Origin: Prauserella aidingensis
Lineage (GTDB): Bacteria; Actinomycetota; Actinomycetes; Mycobacteriales; Pseudonocardiaceae
Assembly: GCF_024171865.1 (NCBI RefSeq)
Contig: NZ_JAMTCN010000004.1
Span: forward strand, 62,001 to 126,000
Reading direction: 5' to 3'
Length of the DNA stretch: 64,000 bases
Positions 36,169-51,069 of this stretch are shown in pieces (position 1 is the stretch's first letter; each line of letters starts with the position of its first letter). Under the pieces are notes generated by a model that had not been told where the DNA came from, did not search any database, and was given only the letters and a program-made list of their open reading frames with translations. Position numbers and translations under genes: made by a program.

Positions 36169-37209
36169 ATGTCCGAGTACGCGATTCTGATCCTGCCGTC
36201 GGCCAACCGGGTCTACACCGACACCTCGCCCCGCCTGCTGCAGGCCGAACTGACCGCGTTCGGCGACGCGGTGCTGTCCACGGAGGTGCACGAGCCGGGC
36301 ACACGGTCGATCGGCGGCGCGTCCTACGTCACGTTCACCACCCCGGACCCGCTGACCGGCGACGACATCGCGCTGCTGTCGAATCTGTCGTCGGCCTACG
36401 TGCTGTTCGAGCTCACCGGCGAGCTGCTCCGGCCGCTGCCGCTCTCGCCCGCCGACGTGTTCGACTCGGACCTGCTGACGATCCAGAAGTACAGCGGCAA
36501 GACCAACGAACTGTTCACCAAGCTGCTGCTGAATCTCACCGTGCTGGCCTCCGACCGGCCGCGTGGCGTGGTCGAGGGCGGCCTGCGCGTGGTGGATCCG
36601 TTGTGCGGCAGGGGCACGACGCTCAATCAGGCGATGATGTACGGCTTCGACGCCACCGGTCTCGAAACCGACGGCAAGGATTTCGAGGCCTACCAGCAGT
36701 TCATCAAGACGTGGCTGCGCACCAAACGCGTCAAGCACAAGGCCGAGGCGGGGATGCTGCGCCACCGGAAGGCGCGGCTCGGACGCAGGCTGGACATCGA
36801 GTACGCCGCGTCGAAGGAGCGGTACAAGGCGGGCGAGACGCGGACGCTCTCCTACCTCAACTGCGACACGCTCCACACGGACGAGCTGCTGCGTCCCGGG
36901 TCGGCCGACCTCGTCGTCACCGACGCGCCCTACGGGGTGCAGCACGGGAGCCGCACACCGGACCGCGTGCCCGCGCGGAGCCCGCGCGACCTGCTCGCCG
37001 CGGCGGTGCCGGGATGGACCCGGGTGCTGCGGCGCGGGGGCGCGCTCGGCCTGTCGTGGAACACGCACGTCGTGGCGCGGGACGAACTCGTCGGCATTCT
37101 GGCCGGTGCCGGGCTGACCGTTCGCGACGACGGTCCGTACGCGTCGCTGGCGCACCGCGTCGACCAGGCCATCGTGCGGGACGTCCTCGTCGCGACGAAG
37201 GACCACTGA
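36169..37209 (+). CDS. Trm11/TrmG10-like SAM-dependent methyltransferase
   Basis: A 346-residue methyltransferase. The N-terminal 110 residues look like a substrate-binding domain (YAILILPSANRVYTDTSPRLLQAELTAFG). The SAM-binding motif is VVDPLCGRGTTLNQAMMYGFDATGLE at about residues 141-166, and the catalytic motif IV reads TDAPYGVQHG at about residue 250. Its layout is that of the archaeal/eukaryal Trm11-TrmG10 class, which methylates a tRNA guanine, but motif IV has Ala where that class has Pro (DPPYG). A basic helical insert rich in Lys and Arg (residues about 175-215) may contact RNA. Similar proteins are widespread in actinomycetes without assigned function. The target, tRNA or DNA, is not known. 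Confidence 0.75.
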   Translation: MSEYAILILPSANRVYTDTSPRLLQAELTAFGDAVLSTEVHEPGTRSIGGASYVTFTTPDPLTGDDIALLSNLSSAYVLFELTGELLRPLPLSPADVFDSDLLTIQKYSGKTNELFTKLLLNLTVLASDRPRGVVEGGLRVVDPLCGRGTTLNQAMMYGFDATGLETDGKDFEAYQQFIKTWLRTKRVKHKAEAGMLRHRKARLGRRLDIEYAASKERYKAGETRTLSYLNCDTLHTDELLRPGSADLVVTDAPYGVQHGSRTPDRVPARSPRDLLAAAVPGWTRVLRRGGALGLSWNTHVVARDELVGILAGAGLTVRDDGPYASLAHRVDQAIVRDVLVATKDH

Positions 37210-37262: not shown

Positions 37263-39556
37263 ATGCCGGCCTCCCGTTCCCGCCTGCGCCGGATCCGGAC
37301 CCCGGCGGTGCTCACCGTCGTCGCCGTCCTCGTCGCGGCCGCGATCGTCACGTGGGCGCGCGTACCGCGGGACGACCTGGAGGTCCTCGACCCCGGCGGG
37401 CTGCGGGTCGCGCCGGGCACCCCGGTCACACCACCGCGGGCGGCGTGACGGTGACCGCCGACTCCGGCGGCCGCTCCGGAGCCGGAGCACGCGTCGTCGT
37501 CGAGACCGCCCGCGGCACGGTCTGGAGCAGCGATCCCGGCCGCGCGTTCCTCGGGGCCGGCCGCGGCACCCTCGAGTCCGACGAGGACCGCGGACACCTC
37601 TGGCTCCGCACCGGCCACGACCGCCGCTGGACCAGCCAGACCCTCGACCGGGTGACCACGCACGACCGCGGCGTCGTCCTCACTGGACAGCTGGAGGACC
37701 TGGCGGGCACGCCGGGGCCGACCTGGCGCGCCGAGTTCACGGCCACCGAGCGCGGCGTGATGCTGGACGCCCGGCTCGGCGATGGCGGCGGCCCCACCTC
37801 GCTCGGGTTCTGGAGCGCCCGCAAGGGCCGGAGCGCGGTGCACGGGTTCGGCGAGCAGTTCACCGCGTTCAACCTCGACGGGCGCATCCTGCCGATCGTG
37901 ATCCGGGAACAGGGCGTCGGCCGCGGGGAGCAGCCGATCACGGCGCTGGCCGACGTCACCAACCACGGCGCGGGCGGCACCGAGGAGATGACCTATGCGA
38001 CGTGGGCCTCCTGGGCGACCGAGGACCTGCGCGGCGTCCGGCTCGACCCGACGCTGCGCGCCTCGCACGCACCCGCGGTGGCCGACACGACCGCCGAGGG
38101 GCGGGTCGGCCTGGAGATCCGGGCCACGCGGTTGCGCGCCGAGCTGGTCACCGCCGACACGCCGCTCGACCTCGTCGCCCGGCAGCAGTCCGGGACCGAC
38201 CGCCCCGCACTGGCGGACTGGACCTCCGACGGTGCCGTCGTCGGCATCCAGGGCGGTACGGCGGCGGTGCGGCGAACGGTCGATACGCTCCGGAGCGCCG
38301 GAACCCGCATCAGCGGCGTCTGGCTGCAGGACTGGACGGGACAGCGCACCACGTCCTTCGGCGACCGGCTGTGGTGGACCTGGCAGCTCGACCGCGAGCG
38401 TTACCCCGGTTGGGAGCGGCTCGTCTCCGACCTCGCCGCCGACGACATCACCGTGACGACGTACGTCAACCCGTTCCTCGTCGACCCCGCGCAGCAGCAC
38501 CCGGCGCCCGACCGGAACCTGTACGCCGAGGCAGCGGCACGGGCATACCTGGTCACGACGGCAGACGGCCGGCCGTACCCGATCGACCAGGGCGACTTCG
38601 ACGCCTACCTGGTCGACCTCACCGACGAGGCGGCTCGCGACTGGTACGCCGACGTCATCGCCACCGAGGTCCTGACCGACGGCGTCCGCGGTGCCATGGC
38701 CGACTTCGGCGAGGGCCTGCCGCTGGACGCGGCGCTGACCGACGGTGACGCCGTCACGGCCCACAACCGGTGGCCCGCGCTCTGGGCGGAGACGGTCCGC
38801 GACGCCTGCACGCGCGCGGGGAAACCGGACTGCGTCACCTGGTTCCGCGCCGGCTCGCTCGGGATGGCCGCCGACGCCCCGATGTTCTGGAACGGCGACC
38901 AACTGACCTCGTTCAGCGCTCACGACGGGCTGGCGTCGGTGCTGCGCGGCACGTTCTCGGCGGGAGTGTCCGGCTGGCCGTTGGTGCACTCCGACGTCGG
39001 CGGGTACACCTCGATCGACGCGGTCGTGAAGGACTACGTGCGCTCACCGGAACTACTCGCCCGCTGGGCCGAGTTGTCCGCGTTCGGGGTCATGATGCGC
39101 ACCCACGAGGGCAACCGCCCCGCGGCGAACGTGCAGGTCGAGGACGTACGGGTGCGCAAGCACTTCGCCAGGACGACCCGGATCTACGCGGCGCTGGCCG
39201 ACTATCGGCGCGAGGTCGTCGCCCACGCCACGGCGACCGGTGTCCCGGCGATCCGGCACGGCTGGTTGAACGTCCCGGGCACTGCGGCCGCCGAGGCCGA
39301 CGACCAGTTCTTCCTCGGACCGTCCGTCCTCGTCGCTCCCGTGCTCGCCGAGGGTGCCCGCGAGGTCGAGGTGACGTTGCCGCCCGGCCGGTGGCGGCAC
39401 CTGCTGACCGGGAAGGTCTACGACGGCGCCGCGACACGGACCGTCCCGGCGCCGATCGGCACCCCCGCGGCGTTCGTGGAGACCTCGGATCCGTGGGCGG
39501 ATCGCCTCACCGACGCCCTCACCGACGCCCTCACCGACGCCCTCGCCGCCCGATAG
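37263..39556 (+). CDS. GH31 enzyme, probable sulfoquinovosidase, with an apparent frameshift near the N-terminus
   Basis: The enzyme frame (37445-39556) encodes a GH31 protein strongly resembling E. coli YihQ, which hydrolyses alpha-sulfoquinovosides from plant sulfolipid. FGEQFTAFNLDGRILP, EQGVGRGEQP and MRTHEGNRP match. The YihQ catalytic nucleophile and acid/base aspartates align with codons 38702 and 38897, and the five sulfonate-site residues Q, Q, R, W, Y align with codons 38249, 38327, 38366, 38375 and 39005 at nearly the same spacing. A membrane anchor (residues 14-31 of MPASRSRLRRIRTPAVL...) starts at 37263 in another frame and ends at a stop at 37446. One extra base near 37428-37432 would join the two. 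The C-terminus ends in three LTDA repeats. No other sulfoquinovose-catabolism gene is nearby. Confidence 0.8.
37426..37448 (+). other. apparent single-base frameshift in the GH31 gene
   Basis: The first 61 codons (37263-37448) give a signal anchor and the start of the N-terminal beta domain, then run into TGA. The protein continues in the +2 frame from about 37430, where TTAGGVTVTA follows naturally if one base is added after GTCAC. The frameshift may be real or a sequencing error. A GTG at 37445 overlapping the TGA could start a truncated, anchor-less enzyme. Confidence 0.7.
39506..39541 (+). repeat. three 12-base tandem repeats at the end of the GH31 gene
   Basis: CTCACCGACGCC is repeated three times without a mismatch and encodes LTDA three times just before the stop codon. 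Confidence 0.9.
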
Positions 39557-39608: not shown

Positions 39609-40061
39609 TTACTCCTCGTCGGCGTCCTTGGCGGGCTTGTACGGGTCGGGTTCGCCCGCCGGCTCCGCGGTCGTGGCCTGCCGGGCGACCTCGGCGTCGG
39701 CCTCGCGCGCCTTGGCGAGGAGATCGTCGATGTTGCGCGCCTCGGAGGGGATGTTGTCCGCGACGAACGCCAGCGTGGGCGTGTACCGCACGCCCGTGCC
39801 CTGTCCGACCTTGGTCCGCAACACGCCGCGGGCGGATTCGAGCGCTGCGGCGGCACCGGCGAAGTCCGGCGCCGCGTCGAGGGTTTCGCCGAGCACGGTG
39901 TAATACACGGTGGCGTCGCGCAGGTCACCGGTGACGCGGGCGTCCGTGATCGTCACGTTGCCCAGTCGCGGGTCCTTGATCTCGTGTTCGATCGCGGACG
40001 CGACGATCTGTGCGATCCGCTTGGCCAGCCTGCGTGCCCGAGCCTTGTCAGCCACGGCCAT
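39609..40061 (-). CDS. rbfA: 30S ribosome-binding factor RbfA
   Basis: A 150-residue RbfA that helps the late maturation of the 30S subunit at the 16S rRNA 5' helix. Family stretches are [51 protein letters not shown] and [27 protein letters not shown] charged C-terminal tail extends about 30 residues beyond the core. GAGGGG precedes the ATG. It is the last gene of the translation operon in this window; nrnA, which usually follows, is absent. Confidence 0.96.
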
Positions 40062-47889: not shown

Positions 47890-48930
47890 TCAGCGGAGGG
47901 CCGCAACCGCCAGATCGACGTCCTGCCACGTGTTGTACAGGTGGAATCCCAGGCGGAACCGGCCCGCACGCATACTTCCGCGCAGGCCCGCGCGAGCGAG
48001 CCGTTCCGGGTCGGCTCGGGTGTCGAGGGCCACGATCGCACTGCCCGCGGGCGGCAGGCCGAACTCGCCGCGCAGCGCGTCGGCGAGCCCGGTGCAGTGC
48101 GCATGCACGGCTCCCCGGTCGAGCGCGGCGAGGTGGTCGAGCGCCGCGGCGGCCCCGATGAACGCCAGCCACGCCGGTGAGGCGTCGAATCGCCGCGCCC
48201 CGGCGGCCAGCCGCAGCGGCAGGCCGTACACCGTGTCCCACGGATTCTCCCCCGCGTACCAGTTCGCGCCCACGGGCCTGCCGCGGTCGAGCGCCCGCGG
48301 ATGCACGGCGAGCCACGCCGCACCGCGCGGGCTCAACAGCCACTTGTAGCCCGCGCAGACGACCCAGTCGGCCCAGTCCAGTGCGAGCGGCAACCACCCG
48401 GCCGCCTGCGTGACGTCGAGCGCCACCGGGATCCCGGCCTCGGCGGTGGCGGCCCGGAGTGCGGCGAGGTCGGCGACCGCGCCGTCGGCGGACTGGACCA
48501 CGGCGACCACCACGAGGTCGTGCCCGTCGACCGCCGAGGCGAGCTCGGCAACCGGCACCGTCTCGACGGTCACGCCGCGGTGTTCGTGCGCGGCGAACGG
48601 GAACGTCACACTGGTGAACTCCGCGGTCGCGGCGAGAACCCGCGCACCGTCGGGCAGGCCCGCCGCGACCGGGGCGAGCAGCCCCGCAACGGTGGCGCCG
48701 ACGGCGACCCGTTCGGCCGGAACGCCCACCAGGTCGGCGAACGACACCCGCGAGGCGTCGACGGCGGCGGTGAAGTCCGGCGGATCGTCCGCGCCCGTGC
48801 GCCAGCGGTCGACGGCGGTCGCGACGGTGTCGGCGACGGTGACGGGCGGGATGCCGATGCTCGGCGTGTTGACGTATCCCAGGGGAACGTCGAACGCGGC
48901 ACCGAAAGCGTGTCGGCGGGAAGCGCTCAT
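47890..48930 (-). CDS. aminotransferase class V-fold PLP-dependent enzyme
   Basis: A 346-residue fold-type I PLP enzyme. The PLP-binding lysine is in VVCAGYKWLLSPRGAAWLAV, preceded by the cofactor aspartate in IPVALDVTQAAGWLPLAL. The C-terminal part includes RLGFHLYNTWQDVDLAVAAL. The class includes cysteine desulfurases, isopenicillin N epimerase-like enzymes and the EgtE lyase; nothing in the sequence decides between them. There is no conserved cysteine in the place expected for a desulfurase. The ATG at 48930 is chosen as the first ATG at the start of homology. Confidence 0.88.
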   Translation of the reverse strand: MSASRRHAFGAAFDVPLGYVNTPSIGIPPVTVADTVATAVDRWRTGADDPPDFTAAVDASRVSFADLVGVPAERVAVGATVAGLLAPVAAGLPDGARVLAATAEFTSVTFPFAAHEHRGVTVETVPVAELASAVDGHDLVVVAVVQSADGAVADLAALRAATAEAGIPVALDVTQAAGWLPLALDWADWVVCAGYKWLLSPRGAAWLAVHPRALDRGRPVGANWYAGENPWDTVYGLPLRLAAGARRFDASPAWLAFIGAAAALDHLAALDRGAVHAHCTGLADALRGEFGLPPAGSAIVALDTRADPERLARAGLRGSMRAGRFRLGFHLYNTWQDVDLAVAALR

Positions 48931-49001
48931 GATCGGCACGCTACTCCCGCCGGGCGCCCCGCCCCACTGAGCGCGCGCCCGGCCCCGTCGCGGCGATCGG
49001 G

Positions 49002-50501
49002 TCACCCGCGTTCGAGCAGCGGTCCGAACAGCCCCGGGACGGCCTCGTCCGCGAAGGCGAGGCCCTCGGCGGCGCCGACGTCGTGGACGGAGTACGCACC
49101 GGACCCCGCTGCGGTCGTGGCGGTGATCGTCATCAACCCGCGGCGGCGCTGGAAGAGCGACTGACGGGCGTTCAGGCCGATCACCCCACGGCGTTGGAGG
49201 GCGACGGTGCTGCGGCGCACGCTGCCGTGGCGCGCCACCAGGTGGTCACCGCTCAGGCCGTGGCCGAGGTTGCGGTACGCGTCGACGGCGAGCGCGAGGG
49301 CGATCGGCACGCCGAGCGCCGCGCCGATCCACGCCAGGTGGAGCAGGACCGCCGACGACAGCAGCCCGCCGAGCGCCGTCAGCGTCAGCACCGGGACCGC
49401 AGCGCCGGCCAGCGCCCAGCGGATGCGCCTGCCGCGTGCGGCCCGCGGATGCGGCGTCAGCGCGGCCGGCATCGGGCCGGTTCGCTCCCGCAGCACGGCC
49501 GCGGCCACCCGATGCGCCTCGCCACGGGGTGCGGCGGGGAGCAGGGTCTTCCGGTCGGCCTTGTCGTCACCCCCGGACCGCAGACCGGTCGCGACGGCGT
49601 CGACCCGCGCCGCGCCCGCCGTGCGCACCCCGAGTGGTTCGACGAGCTCGACCCCACGGAGGCGCTGCTCCTCGAGCGAGATCGACCGGACCGTCACCAG
49701 GCCACGGCGGACCCGCAGCGTGCCGCCGGGTTCGCGATCGAGCCGGAAGTTCCACCACATCTCGACGAACAGCGCGAGCGAACCGACCACCCCGATCGCC
49801 ACGCCGGCGGCCACGACCACGGCGAGGGCACCCACGAGACCGAGTCCGCCCAGCAGGCCGACCGTCCAGCCGATCACCCCCGCCTGCAGGTCGAACCATT
49901 GCGCGACCTGCAGTACCGCCCCGTAGGCGCCCGCACCGAGCGCGGGCGTGAGGATCGACAACGGTGCGTACCGCACGCAACCGGGATCGAACGTGGCGAG
50001 CCGTCCGTCGGTGACGGGTTCCCCGGCGCCGCCCCCGCGGTCGAGAAGCTCGGCGCGCAACCGCTCCCCCTCCTCGCGTGCCACGGCGTAGAGCGACACC
50101 GAACCGCCCGCCGATCCGCCCTCGCCGGTGTCGATCTTCACGGTGACGATGCCGAAGATCCGCACCTGTGGCCCCGCGGTGAGGTCCACGGTGCGGATGC
50201 GGTCCCGCGACACGGACCTGCGGCTGCGCACCACGATGCCCTGGACGAGTTCGACGCGGTCGGCCGTCACGCGATAGCGGGTCCTGCGCAGCCGCACGTG
50301 CTCGACGACCACCGCGGCGACCAGGGCGGCGACCGAGGCGGGCAGCACCGTGACGAGCGCCCAGAACACCGACGACGAGGCGATCCCGAGAGCGGTCGGC
50401 ATGCCCGCGGCCACGCAGATCCCGGCGACGGTGACCACGCTCGCCCGGACGGTGCGCGCGTCGAGTCGGCGCCACCCCTGCTCGGAATCGGCTGTCGGCA
50501 C
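49002..50501 (-). CDS. bacterial PH-domain membrane protein (YdbT-like)
   Basis: A 499-residue protein with paired membrane helices (about residues 23-70, 205-250 and 365-400) and bacterial PH (bPH2) domains between them. The PH blocks are RYRVTADRVELVQGIVVRSRRSVSRDRIRTVDLTAGPQVRIFGIVTVKI, GTLRVRRGLVTVRSISLEEQRLRGVELVEPLGVRTAGAARVDAV and LVARHGSVRRSTVALQRRGVIGLNARQSLFQRRRGL. YdbT-like proteins form pairs with smaller YdbS-like proteins; the B. subtilis pair contributes to resistance to some antimicrobials. The GTG at 50501 has AAGGGAG just upstream. Its usual partner lies at 51354-51944, beyond a plus-strand marR cassette. Confidence 0.85.
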   Translation of the reverse strand: MPTADSEQGWRRLDARTVRASVVTVAGICVAAGMPTALGIASSSVFWALVTVLPASVAALVAAVVVEHVRLRRTRYRVTADRVELVQGIVVRSRRSVSRDRIRTVDLTAGPQVRIFGIVTVKIDTGEGGSAGGSVSLYAVAREEGERLRAELLDRGGGAGEPVTDGRLATFDPGCVRYAPLSILTPALGAGAYGAVLQVAQWFDLQAGVIGWTVGLLGGLGLVGALAVVVAAGVAIGVVGSLALFVEMWWNFRLDREPGGTLRVRRGLVTVRSISLEEQRLRGVELVEPLGVRTAGAARVDAVATGLRSGGDDKADRKTLLPAAPRGEAHRVAAAVLRERTGPMPAALTPHPRAARGRRIRWALAGAAVPVLTLTALGGLLSSAVLLHLAWIGAALGVPIALALAVDAYRNLGHGLSGDHLVARHGSVRRSTVALQRRGVIGLNARQSLFQRRRGLMTITATTAAGSGAYSVHDVGAAEGLAFADEAVPGLFGPLLERG

Positions 50502-50587
50502 GATGCTCCCTTCGTGTCGCCGCGGTCGGTCACGGTCACGCGTGATCGTCGCGAACGACGGCCGCACTGTCGACCCGACCTAGACAT

Positions 50588-50611
50588 AAAGCAACTTTCT
50601 CAAGTAGCTTT
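50588..50611 (+). promoter_or_regulatory. near-perfect operator overlapping the marR promoter
   Basis: Two 10-base arms, AAAGCAACTT (50588-50597) and AAGTAGCTTT (50602-50611), separated by TCTC, form an inverted repeat with one mismatched pair. The right arm contains TAGCTT, a -10-like hexamer ending 6 bases before the marR ATG. A dimeric MarR protein bound here would block its own promoter. The site also sits in the 115 bases between divergent marR and the PH-domain gene, so it could control both. Confidence 0.75.
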
Positions 50612-50616
50612 CATAT

Positions 50617-51069
50617 ATGGCCGACGACCGTTGCACGCCCACCCGTCCCGCACCAGCGCTCATCTGCCTCGCCTTCGAGACCGTGACGGCCGGCATCATG
50701 CGCGGTCTCCACGAGGCCGGGTTCGACGACCTGCGCCCGACGCACTTCCTGCAGGTCCTGCGCCACCTGACCGGCCACGGGGACCGGCCCGCCGACCTCG
50801 CCCGGCTGGCGGGCGTGACCCCGCAGGCGATCGGCCAGACCCTGGCCGAGCTGGAGGACATGGGATACGTCCGGCGCGAACCCGACCCGGCCGATCAACG
50901 GTCACGGCGGGTGTTCTGGGCCGAACGGGGCCTGCGCGCCGGCGCTGCGCTCGAGGAGCACTACGCGTCGACGGAGCGCCGTTGGGCCGCGGCCGTCGGC
51001 GACGACCGGCTCGACTCCACCCGGACACTGCTCGCCGCGATCATCGGCGAGGAAGGGAGCACCTCATGA
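50617..51069 (+). CDS. MarR family transcriptional regulator
   Basis: A 150-residue winged-helix regulator. The DNA-binding part is LRPTHFLQVLRHLTGHGDRPADLARLAGVTPQAIGQTLAELEDMGYVRREPDPADQRSRRVFW, including the D-x-R-x3 wing. The N- and C-terminal helices give the dimer interface. The ATG at 50617 has no ribosome site and probably heads a leaderless transcript. A 24-base operator covers the promoter. Its last codon overlaps the start of a small membrane protein gene by four bases, so the two form an operon. Confidence 0.92.
   Translation: MADDRCTPTRPAPALICLAFETVTAGIMRGLHEAGFDDLRPTHFLQVLRHLTGHGDRPADLARLAGVTPQAIGQTLAELEDMGYVRREPDPADQRSRRVFWAERGLRAGAALEEHYASTERRWAAAVGDDRLDSTRTLLAAIIGEEGSTS

Follow-up and report, generated by a model that had tools for sequence, protein, structure and literature searches.

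A GH31 gene in the window, the 64,000-nucleotide stretch of Prauserella aidingensis DNA that was analysed, encodes a protein that we take, with moderate confidence, to be a retaining α-sulfoquinovosidase (SQase) of an actinobacterial group, exported and releasing sulfoquinovose (SQ) outside the cell. The protein carries the residues and fold of known SQases, the gene stands alone between two genes that were matched in all seven genomes of the genus, and none of five marker enzymes of SQ breakdown found a proper match in the host genome. In the assembly, the coding region is divided between two reading frames, which bears directly on the predicted location of this copy. The coordinates of the relevant features are collected in Table 1.

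Table 1. Features of the GH31 locus, in window positions
Feature	Positions	Strand	Basis
Methyltransferase-like gene, left neighbour of the insertion site	36169..37209	+	function by reading the translation
Membrane-anchor ORF, 61 aa: basic N-terminus, one hydrophobic segment, linker start	37263..37448	+	frame reading, hydropathy
Frame-change stretch, linker shifted by one base compared with P. isguenensis and P. rugosa	37421..37448	+	comparison
GH31 sulfoquinovosidase-like catalytic protein, from GTG 37445	37445..39556	+	ORF, Pfam, NF007746, PDB, fold
Gln, aligned with YihQ Q262	38249..38251	+	alignment
Gln, aligned with YihQ Q288	38327..38329	+	alignment
Arg 312, aligned with YihQ R301	38366..38368	+	alignment
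Trp 315, aligned with YihQ W304	38375..38377	+	alignment
Asp, aligned with YihQ D405	38702..38704	+	alignment
Asp, aligned with YihQ D472	38897..38899	+	alignment
Tyr 525, aligned with YihQ Y508	39005..39007	+	alignment
rbfA, right neighbour of the insertion site	39609..40061	-	name by reading the translation and context; matched in 7/7 genus genomes

Active-site residues and fold

The earlier note had read two catalytic Asp and the five residues QQRWY as conserved from Escherichia coli YihQ. In the window, all seven codons encode the residues that had been named, and a MAFFT alignment places 7/7 of them on Q262, Q288, R301, W304, D405, D472 and Y508 of YihQ, where we assume the R301 position to bind the sulfonate and the D405 and D472 positions to be the nucleophile and the acid/base, respectively. 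The spacings proposed to be exactly those of YihQ also agree (Q-Q 26, Q-R 13, R-W 3 and acid/base Asp-Tyr 36 residues in both proteins), with the Asp-Asp spacing being 65 in the window protein versus 67 in YihQ. In a phmmer search of the PDB, six SQase sequences matched with E values of 3e-105 to 2e-100, and the next GH31 enzyme was YicI at 1.6e-28; because the six SQases far outscore YicI, the likeness to SQases is not a matter of chance. The protein passed two GH31 models of Pfam, PF01055 (115.8 bits, cut-off 23.5) and PF21365 (52.2 bits, cut-off 24.4), and reached 684.4 bits with NF007746 (PRK10426, the NCBI YihQ-type model; curated cut-off 553), although a pass of the latter model is by itself a weak feature, since relatives with an Arg-to-Gln exchange pass it as well.

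An AlphaFold model of the protein (19 sequences in the input) had a mean pLDDT of 83 and a pTM of 0.88. Rows 1-23 of the Foldseek output were all SQase chains, from E. coli YihQ, A. tumefaciens, E. rectale and BmSQase (TMq 0.81-0.87, E 1.1e-61 to 6.4e-57), and the next row was YicI at E 1.8e-39. Arg 312, Trp 315 and Tyr 525 fall within the segments 302-316, 490-497 and 524-534, where the pLDDT is below 50, so the geometry of the pocket is not confirmed by this model. Together with the tree described below, the residues, model score and fold lend good support to the predicted sulfoquinovosidase identity, and SQase activity of the GH31 protein is likely.

An actinobacterial group and a sister set with an Arg-to-Gln exchange

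Related genes were found at 24 named loci in Prauserella, Ruania, Nocardioides, Dietzia, Arsenicicoccus, Aeromicrobium, Actinomadura, Actinophytocola and several MAGs, and QQRWDDY was present in all 23 that could be scored (L004-L026), L027 being broken and left unscored. The 15 further loci from the phylum (L035-L049) were more varied, comprising two with QQRW (L036, L047), nine with QQQW, two with QHQW, one with none of these motifs (L048) and one broken copy (L038). The residue aligned with Arg301 was Gln in 9/11 loci of family f19 (L035, L037, L039-L044, L049; one of the other two keeps Arg and one is broken) and in 2/2 loci of family f44 (L045, L046), the latter also having His in place of Q288. 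A tree of 40 rows separated YihQ and the four proteobacterial SQases with full support (100/100) from the remaining 35 rows, all actinobacterial, among which a 12-row f19/f44 set (99/98) held the Gln-type copies plus L036, which keeps Arg; the tree was midpoint-rooted and did not include Firmicutes SQases, and "group" or "clade" here denotes one side of a branch. The f19/f44 set lies outside the window's class but within the same phylum.

Three Gln-type copies that were scanned with NF007746 scored 854, 876 and 773 bits, above the 684 of the window protein, and L047, with QQRW, scored 523, below the cut-off. Because Gln-type copies pass the model and L047 fails it, the residues, not the model, carry the SQase assignment. 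Judged from these exchanges, specificity probably changes within the actinobacterial group, and the Gln-type f19/f44 relatives probably have another specificity. One f19 genome (G351) carries both an Arg-type copy (L036) and a Gln-type GH31 gene (48620-50653), with a match to the fucose-isomerase family PF02952 (C12:41317-41586) about 7 kb from the latter (L049, L054).

Genomic site and SQ pathway genes

The left neighbour of the gene resembles a methyltransferase, and the right neighbour is presumably rbfA, named from its translation and its infB/nusA/rimP context. Both flanks were matched in 7/7 Prauserella genomes. The GH31 gene lies between them in three (G000, G003, G004), where they are about 2.4-3.1 kb apart; in G001, G002 and G005 the same flanks are about 34-221 bases apart and the GH31 gene is absent. 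Since the flanks are kept in all seven genomes and the GH31 gene in three, the gene represents a single-gene gain or loss at the rbfA site. In G006 (C85:51818-53637) the site is 1.8 kb wide with no GH31 match and the methyltransferase match is split, so that the gap may hold a remnant or another insert. The GH31 gene is single-copy in its own genome (E 0.001) and was found in 4/200 genomes of the bacterial family and 15/396 genomes of the phylum, its own genome counted in both. The view that it has no SQ catabolic neighbours was borne out, the window having no match to YihS, YihT, KDSG aldolase or SmoC. A cytosolic YihQ orthologue within a sulfo-operon was considered and rejected, as the neighbours are the methyltransferase-like gene and rbfA and marker enzymes were not found.

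The markers searched in the host genome were YihS, YihT, the SqvD family, KDSG aldolase and SmoC. Neither the YihS nor the YihT part of the query matched, a further search at E 1e-20 was negative as well, and the YihV and YihU parts gave only generic-looking kinase and dehydrogenase matches. PF02952, the SqvD-type isomerase family, had no match in the host, with a positive E. coli control; PMC9594981 describes this isomerase as common to sulfo-TAL, sulfo-TK and sulfo-EMP2. The KDSG aldolase part of the query had no match of its own in the host, the sulfo-ED lactonase and SDR parts had best matches of 36% and 41%, both from large generic families, and the sulfo-ASMO monooxygenase (SmoC/SquD-like) matched only two fragments at 28-29% identity, among many SDR and aldo-keto matches to the sulfo-ED/SmoC query. 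A PF07221 scan of the host was negative but carries little weight because the E. coli control was negative too, and the direct YihS query is the one that counts. The suggestion that the enzyme might feed a pathway encoded elsewhere is therefore unsupported for its own genome, where five marker enzymes lack a proper match.

Similarly, the flanks of relatives contained no match to YihS, YihT, KDSG aldolase or SmoC at E 1e-5. Weaker or generic matches in these flanks comprised SDRs in six loci, a YihR-like epimerase (34%, L024), a YihV-like kinase (31%, L020), a CsqR-like regulator (30%, L021) and an aldehyde dehydrogenase (42%, L053). The SDRs of Dietzia and Arsenicicoccus, tried as candidate sulfo-ED SQ dehydrogenases, matched at only 25-34% and were taken as generic. 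Likewise, a search for conserved operon partners outside the genus yielded only small sets within the Dietzia, the Nocardioides and the Actinomadura loci. The 30 neighbour proteins scanned were mostly housekeeping or unrelated (ABC-2 transporters, relA, DUF349, pheT, squalene-hopene cyclase, histidine kinases). Possible sugar genes were a GFO/IDH/MocA oxidoreductase with ThuA beside L006, a sodium:solute symporter beside L009, a solute-binding protein near L021 and an MFS protein beside L026, none of which is specific for SQ.

When 21 bearer genomes were searched for the markers, 19 had no clustered pair of SQ enzymes, and sulfo-EMP-like clusters away from the SQase gene were present in the other two, so the idea of a pathway elsewhere, which failed for the host, may hold for these two relatives. 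The cluster of Ruania albidiflava (L061, G599:C5:131000-150000) contains an SLA-dehydrogenase-like gene besides YihS (62%) and YihT (48%); a second YihS-like gene (48%) would lie about 11 kb from the SQase gene if contig C13 carries L008, and both isomerases score just under the cut-off of a mannose isomerase model. In the cluster of Actinomadura K4S16 (L063, G609:C9:3000-19000), a YihT-like gene (48%), a PF02952 gene, a ribokinase-like kinase and a CsqR-like regulator are all adjacent. YihV had no match at E 1e-6 in either genome. The GH31 enzymes inside these two clusters were rejected as YihQ-type SQases, being YicI-like and without the pocket; they are perhaps an unrecognised SQ-glycoside hydrolase of actinomycetes. 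The matches in the other bearer genomes were all unpaired: YihS-like genes (41-43%) in two Nocardioides genomes, a YihT-like gene (41%) and PF02952 on different contigs of Actinophytocola, a lone PF02952 gene in each of P. rugosa and G351, and aldolase or monooxygenase matches of 30-39%.

The lack of a clustered enzyme pair in 19 bearer genomes could also mean another substrate. The enzyme would then be an extracytoplasmic GH31 protein of SQase fold whose pocket is inherited and whose real substrate is another α-glycoside, for example an anionic or neutral glycoside of the envelope or a glycerolipid glycoside. Such an account, which we regard as unlikely, draws on the replacement of Arg301 in most of the sister set, a sign that specificity seems to drift, on the host genome having no recognised SQ pathway and on the flanks of relatives having no SQ marker enzyme, but the retention of Q, Q, R, W and Y in every scorable named relative is hard to explain unless selection has acted for the same pocket.

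Reading frame of the window copy

The region 37263-39556 had been taken as one enzyme unit but consists of two frames, one for the anchor and one for the GH31 protein. The anchor ORF begins at ATG 37263 and ends at TGA 37446-37448, has a hydropathy peak of 2.59 and matches the fused P. isguenensis protein over its residues 1-54 at 94% identity. The GH31 frame (37352+3k; the listed ORF opens at 37352) ends at a stop codon at 39554-39556, and its in-frame GTG at 37445 overlaps the stop of the anchor ORF. A membrane anchor is thus present upstream, as the earlier note held, but it lies in a different frame from the enzyme. P. isguenensis and P. rugosa encode the two in a single frame, and the P. 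isguenensis protein maps on the window with residues 1-54 in one frame and 54-753 in another. An open frame continues upstream of the enzyme in 23 of the 24 named loci, the exception being the broken L027. When 19 P. isguenensis ORFs were mapped on the window, two others were also split; we judged these to be over-long ORF calls, and the GH31 break to be the only genuine one.

The GH31 frame runs for 707 codons without an internal stop. With a simple NG86 script, dN and dS between the enzyme frames of the window and P. isguenensis were 0.047 and 0.20, and dN to P. rugosa was 0.155 and 0.153 for the window and P. isguenensis, respectively. By these values, with the two distances to P. rugosa equal, the enzyme frame is under purifying selection, and neither decay nor relaxed selection is apparent. 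The host genome is a draft of 80 contigs, and the frame break may be a recent mutation, an assembly error or a break bridged by re-initiation. Two further copies of the GH31 gene (L027, L038) are broken in draft genomes, and frame breaks appear to recur in this gene or in such draft assemblies.

These observations bear on two further readings. In the first, the gene is broken in this strain, with the anchor parted from the enzyme and no working exported enzyme made. We consider this quite unlikely: the frames do differ, the break is the only one judged genuine among the mapped ORFs and L027 and L038 are frame-broken as well, but the uninterrupted enzyme frame under continued constraint speaks against decay, and an 80-contig draft can hold a one-base error. 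In the second, re-initiation at GTG 37445 yields a soluble cytosolic SQase that feeds an unrecognised internal pathway. The GTG overlaps the TGA as in coupled genes, and the product, at about 700 aa, would be about as long as cytosolic YihQ (678 aa); by eye, however, no clear ribosome-binding site precedes the GTG, the open frame extends upstream at nearly all named loci, and no SQ pathway was recognised in the host genome, all of which make this reading improbable.

Export signals across relatives

Export was judged from hydropathy and by eye, a strong segment being defined as a 17-residue mean hydropathy of at least 1.9. Among 37 scored relatives (L027, L034 and L038 were left out; L048 and the Gln-type copies were included), 28 had a strong N-terminal hydrophobic segment, and in 36 the N-terminal region was more hydrophobic than every window in the remainder of the protein. 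The nine relatives below 1.9 were five Dietzia copies, L040, L042, L043 and L044, most of which have Tat-like or weaker segments and one of which (L044) has none. By eye, the anchors of Prauserella, Ruania and several Nocardioides look uncleaved, and Actinomadura, L011 and L020 have Sec-like peptides with AxA-type ends. Twin-arginine patterns, also assigned by eye, were clear in L042 and L043 and weak in Dietzia. All five controls (YihQ and proteobacterial SQases) reached no more than 0.78-1.68 within their first 110 residues, with the peak beginning beyond residue 64.

That differing signals lead to one outcome suggests conservation of the outside location itself, and such a location is likely for the enzymes of the group, as predicted from their N-termini. 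The anchor segment in the window assembly is not in frame with the enzyme, and the location of this copy is uncertain; the proposal of an exported enzyme is supported for the group.

Discussion

In the preferred reading, that of an exported SQase, an uncleaved-looking N-terminal anchor (Sec- or Tat-like in some relatives) would put the catalytic domain outside the cell. Arg 312, Trp 315 and Tyr 525 would hold the sulfonate of an α-linked sulfoquinovoside such as SQGro, perhaps SQDG, and the two catalytic Asp, as nucleophile and acid/base, would cleave it into SQ and glycerol or lipid. From the lack of a recognised SQ pathway in the host, we infer that the benefit would come from the aglycone or from some other use of SQ, with SQ left for others; its release for other organisms, which had been proposed, may occur. 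In the window copy itself, the frame offset may reflect misassembly or a new mutation, or translation may start at GTG 37445.

A broader picture, which we offer tentatively and hold to be possible but doubtful, is that Actinomycetota have an exported, cluster-free GH31 group in which the window's branch consists of extracellular SQases cleaving SQ from sulfolipid for the aglycone, with SQ as a public good, and the sister branch without the sulfonate Arg cleaves another C6-modified or a neutral glycoside, though the YihQ model counts it. In many actinobacterial genera, SQase-type genes lie outside SQ clusters, mostly with export-type segments, and the sister set passes the YihQ model despite its missing sulfonate Arg. 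Were this picture to hold, organisms that make no use of SQ as food could be setting it free outside their cells, and surveys based on YihQ would put the number of SQ consumers too high.

SQase genes are described as diagnostic of SQ-utilising clusters and useful for inference from genomes and metagenomes in PMC10755693. Passages of five papers (PMC12890257, PMC8873060, PMC10755693, PMC13372026, PMC9594981) treat SQase genes as parts of SQ clusters, describe sulfo-EMP clusters of Arthrobacter in which no GH31 SQase can be identified and GH188 SQases occur, and record sulfo-SMO clusters in Actinomycetota. PMC13219744 had no match for location and taxon terms. Among papers screened by title and the start of the abstract, a scope that mostly leaves out subscription papers and is no proof of absence in print, none concerned exported or cluster-free GH31 SQases.

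Among known systems, actinomycetes also obtain SQase activity from the NAD-dependent GH188 SQases of Arthrobacter and others (PMC10755693), which belong to another family and use another mechanism. Within GH31, BmSQase (8r56) is the best fold match of the window protein and shows Q, Q, R and W by eye in the phmmer alignment; both it and the E. rectale SQase (6pnr), which are absent from the tree, are 31-32% identical to the window protein. The Agrobacterium/Rhizobium-type SQases have the fold, the catalytic Asp and R, W and Y in common with it but carry K and E at the places of Q262 and Q288 in 4/4 proteobacterial plasmid copies scored (five fetched, L030 unscored), and, unlike the window locus, their loci contain sulfo-ED-like or sulfo-ASMO-like genes by annotation. 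E. coli YihQ, 35% identical (tblastn, E. coli copies), has the same fold, the two catalytic Asp and Q, Q, R, W and Y; it lacks an N-terminal hydrophobic segment, whereas the relatives of the window gene have a fused anchor or signal, and it sits in the yih sulfo-EMP operon, whereas the window gene stands alone.
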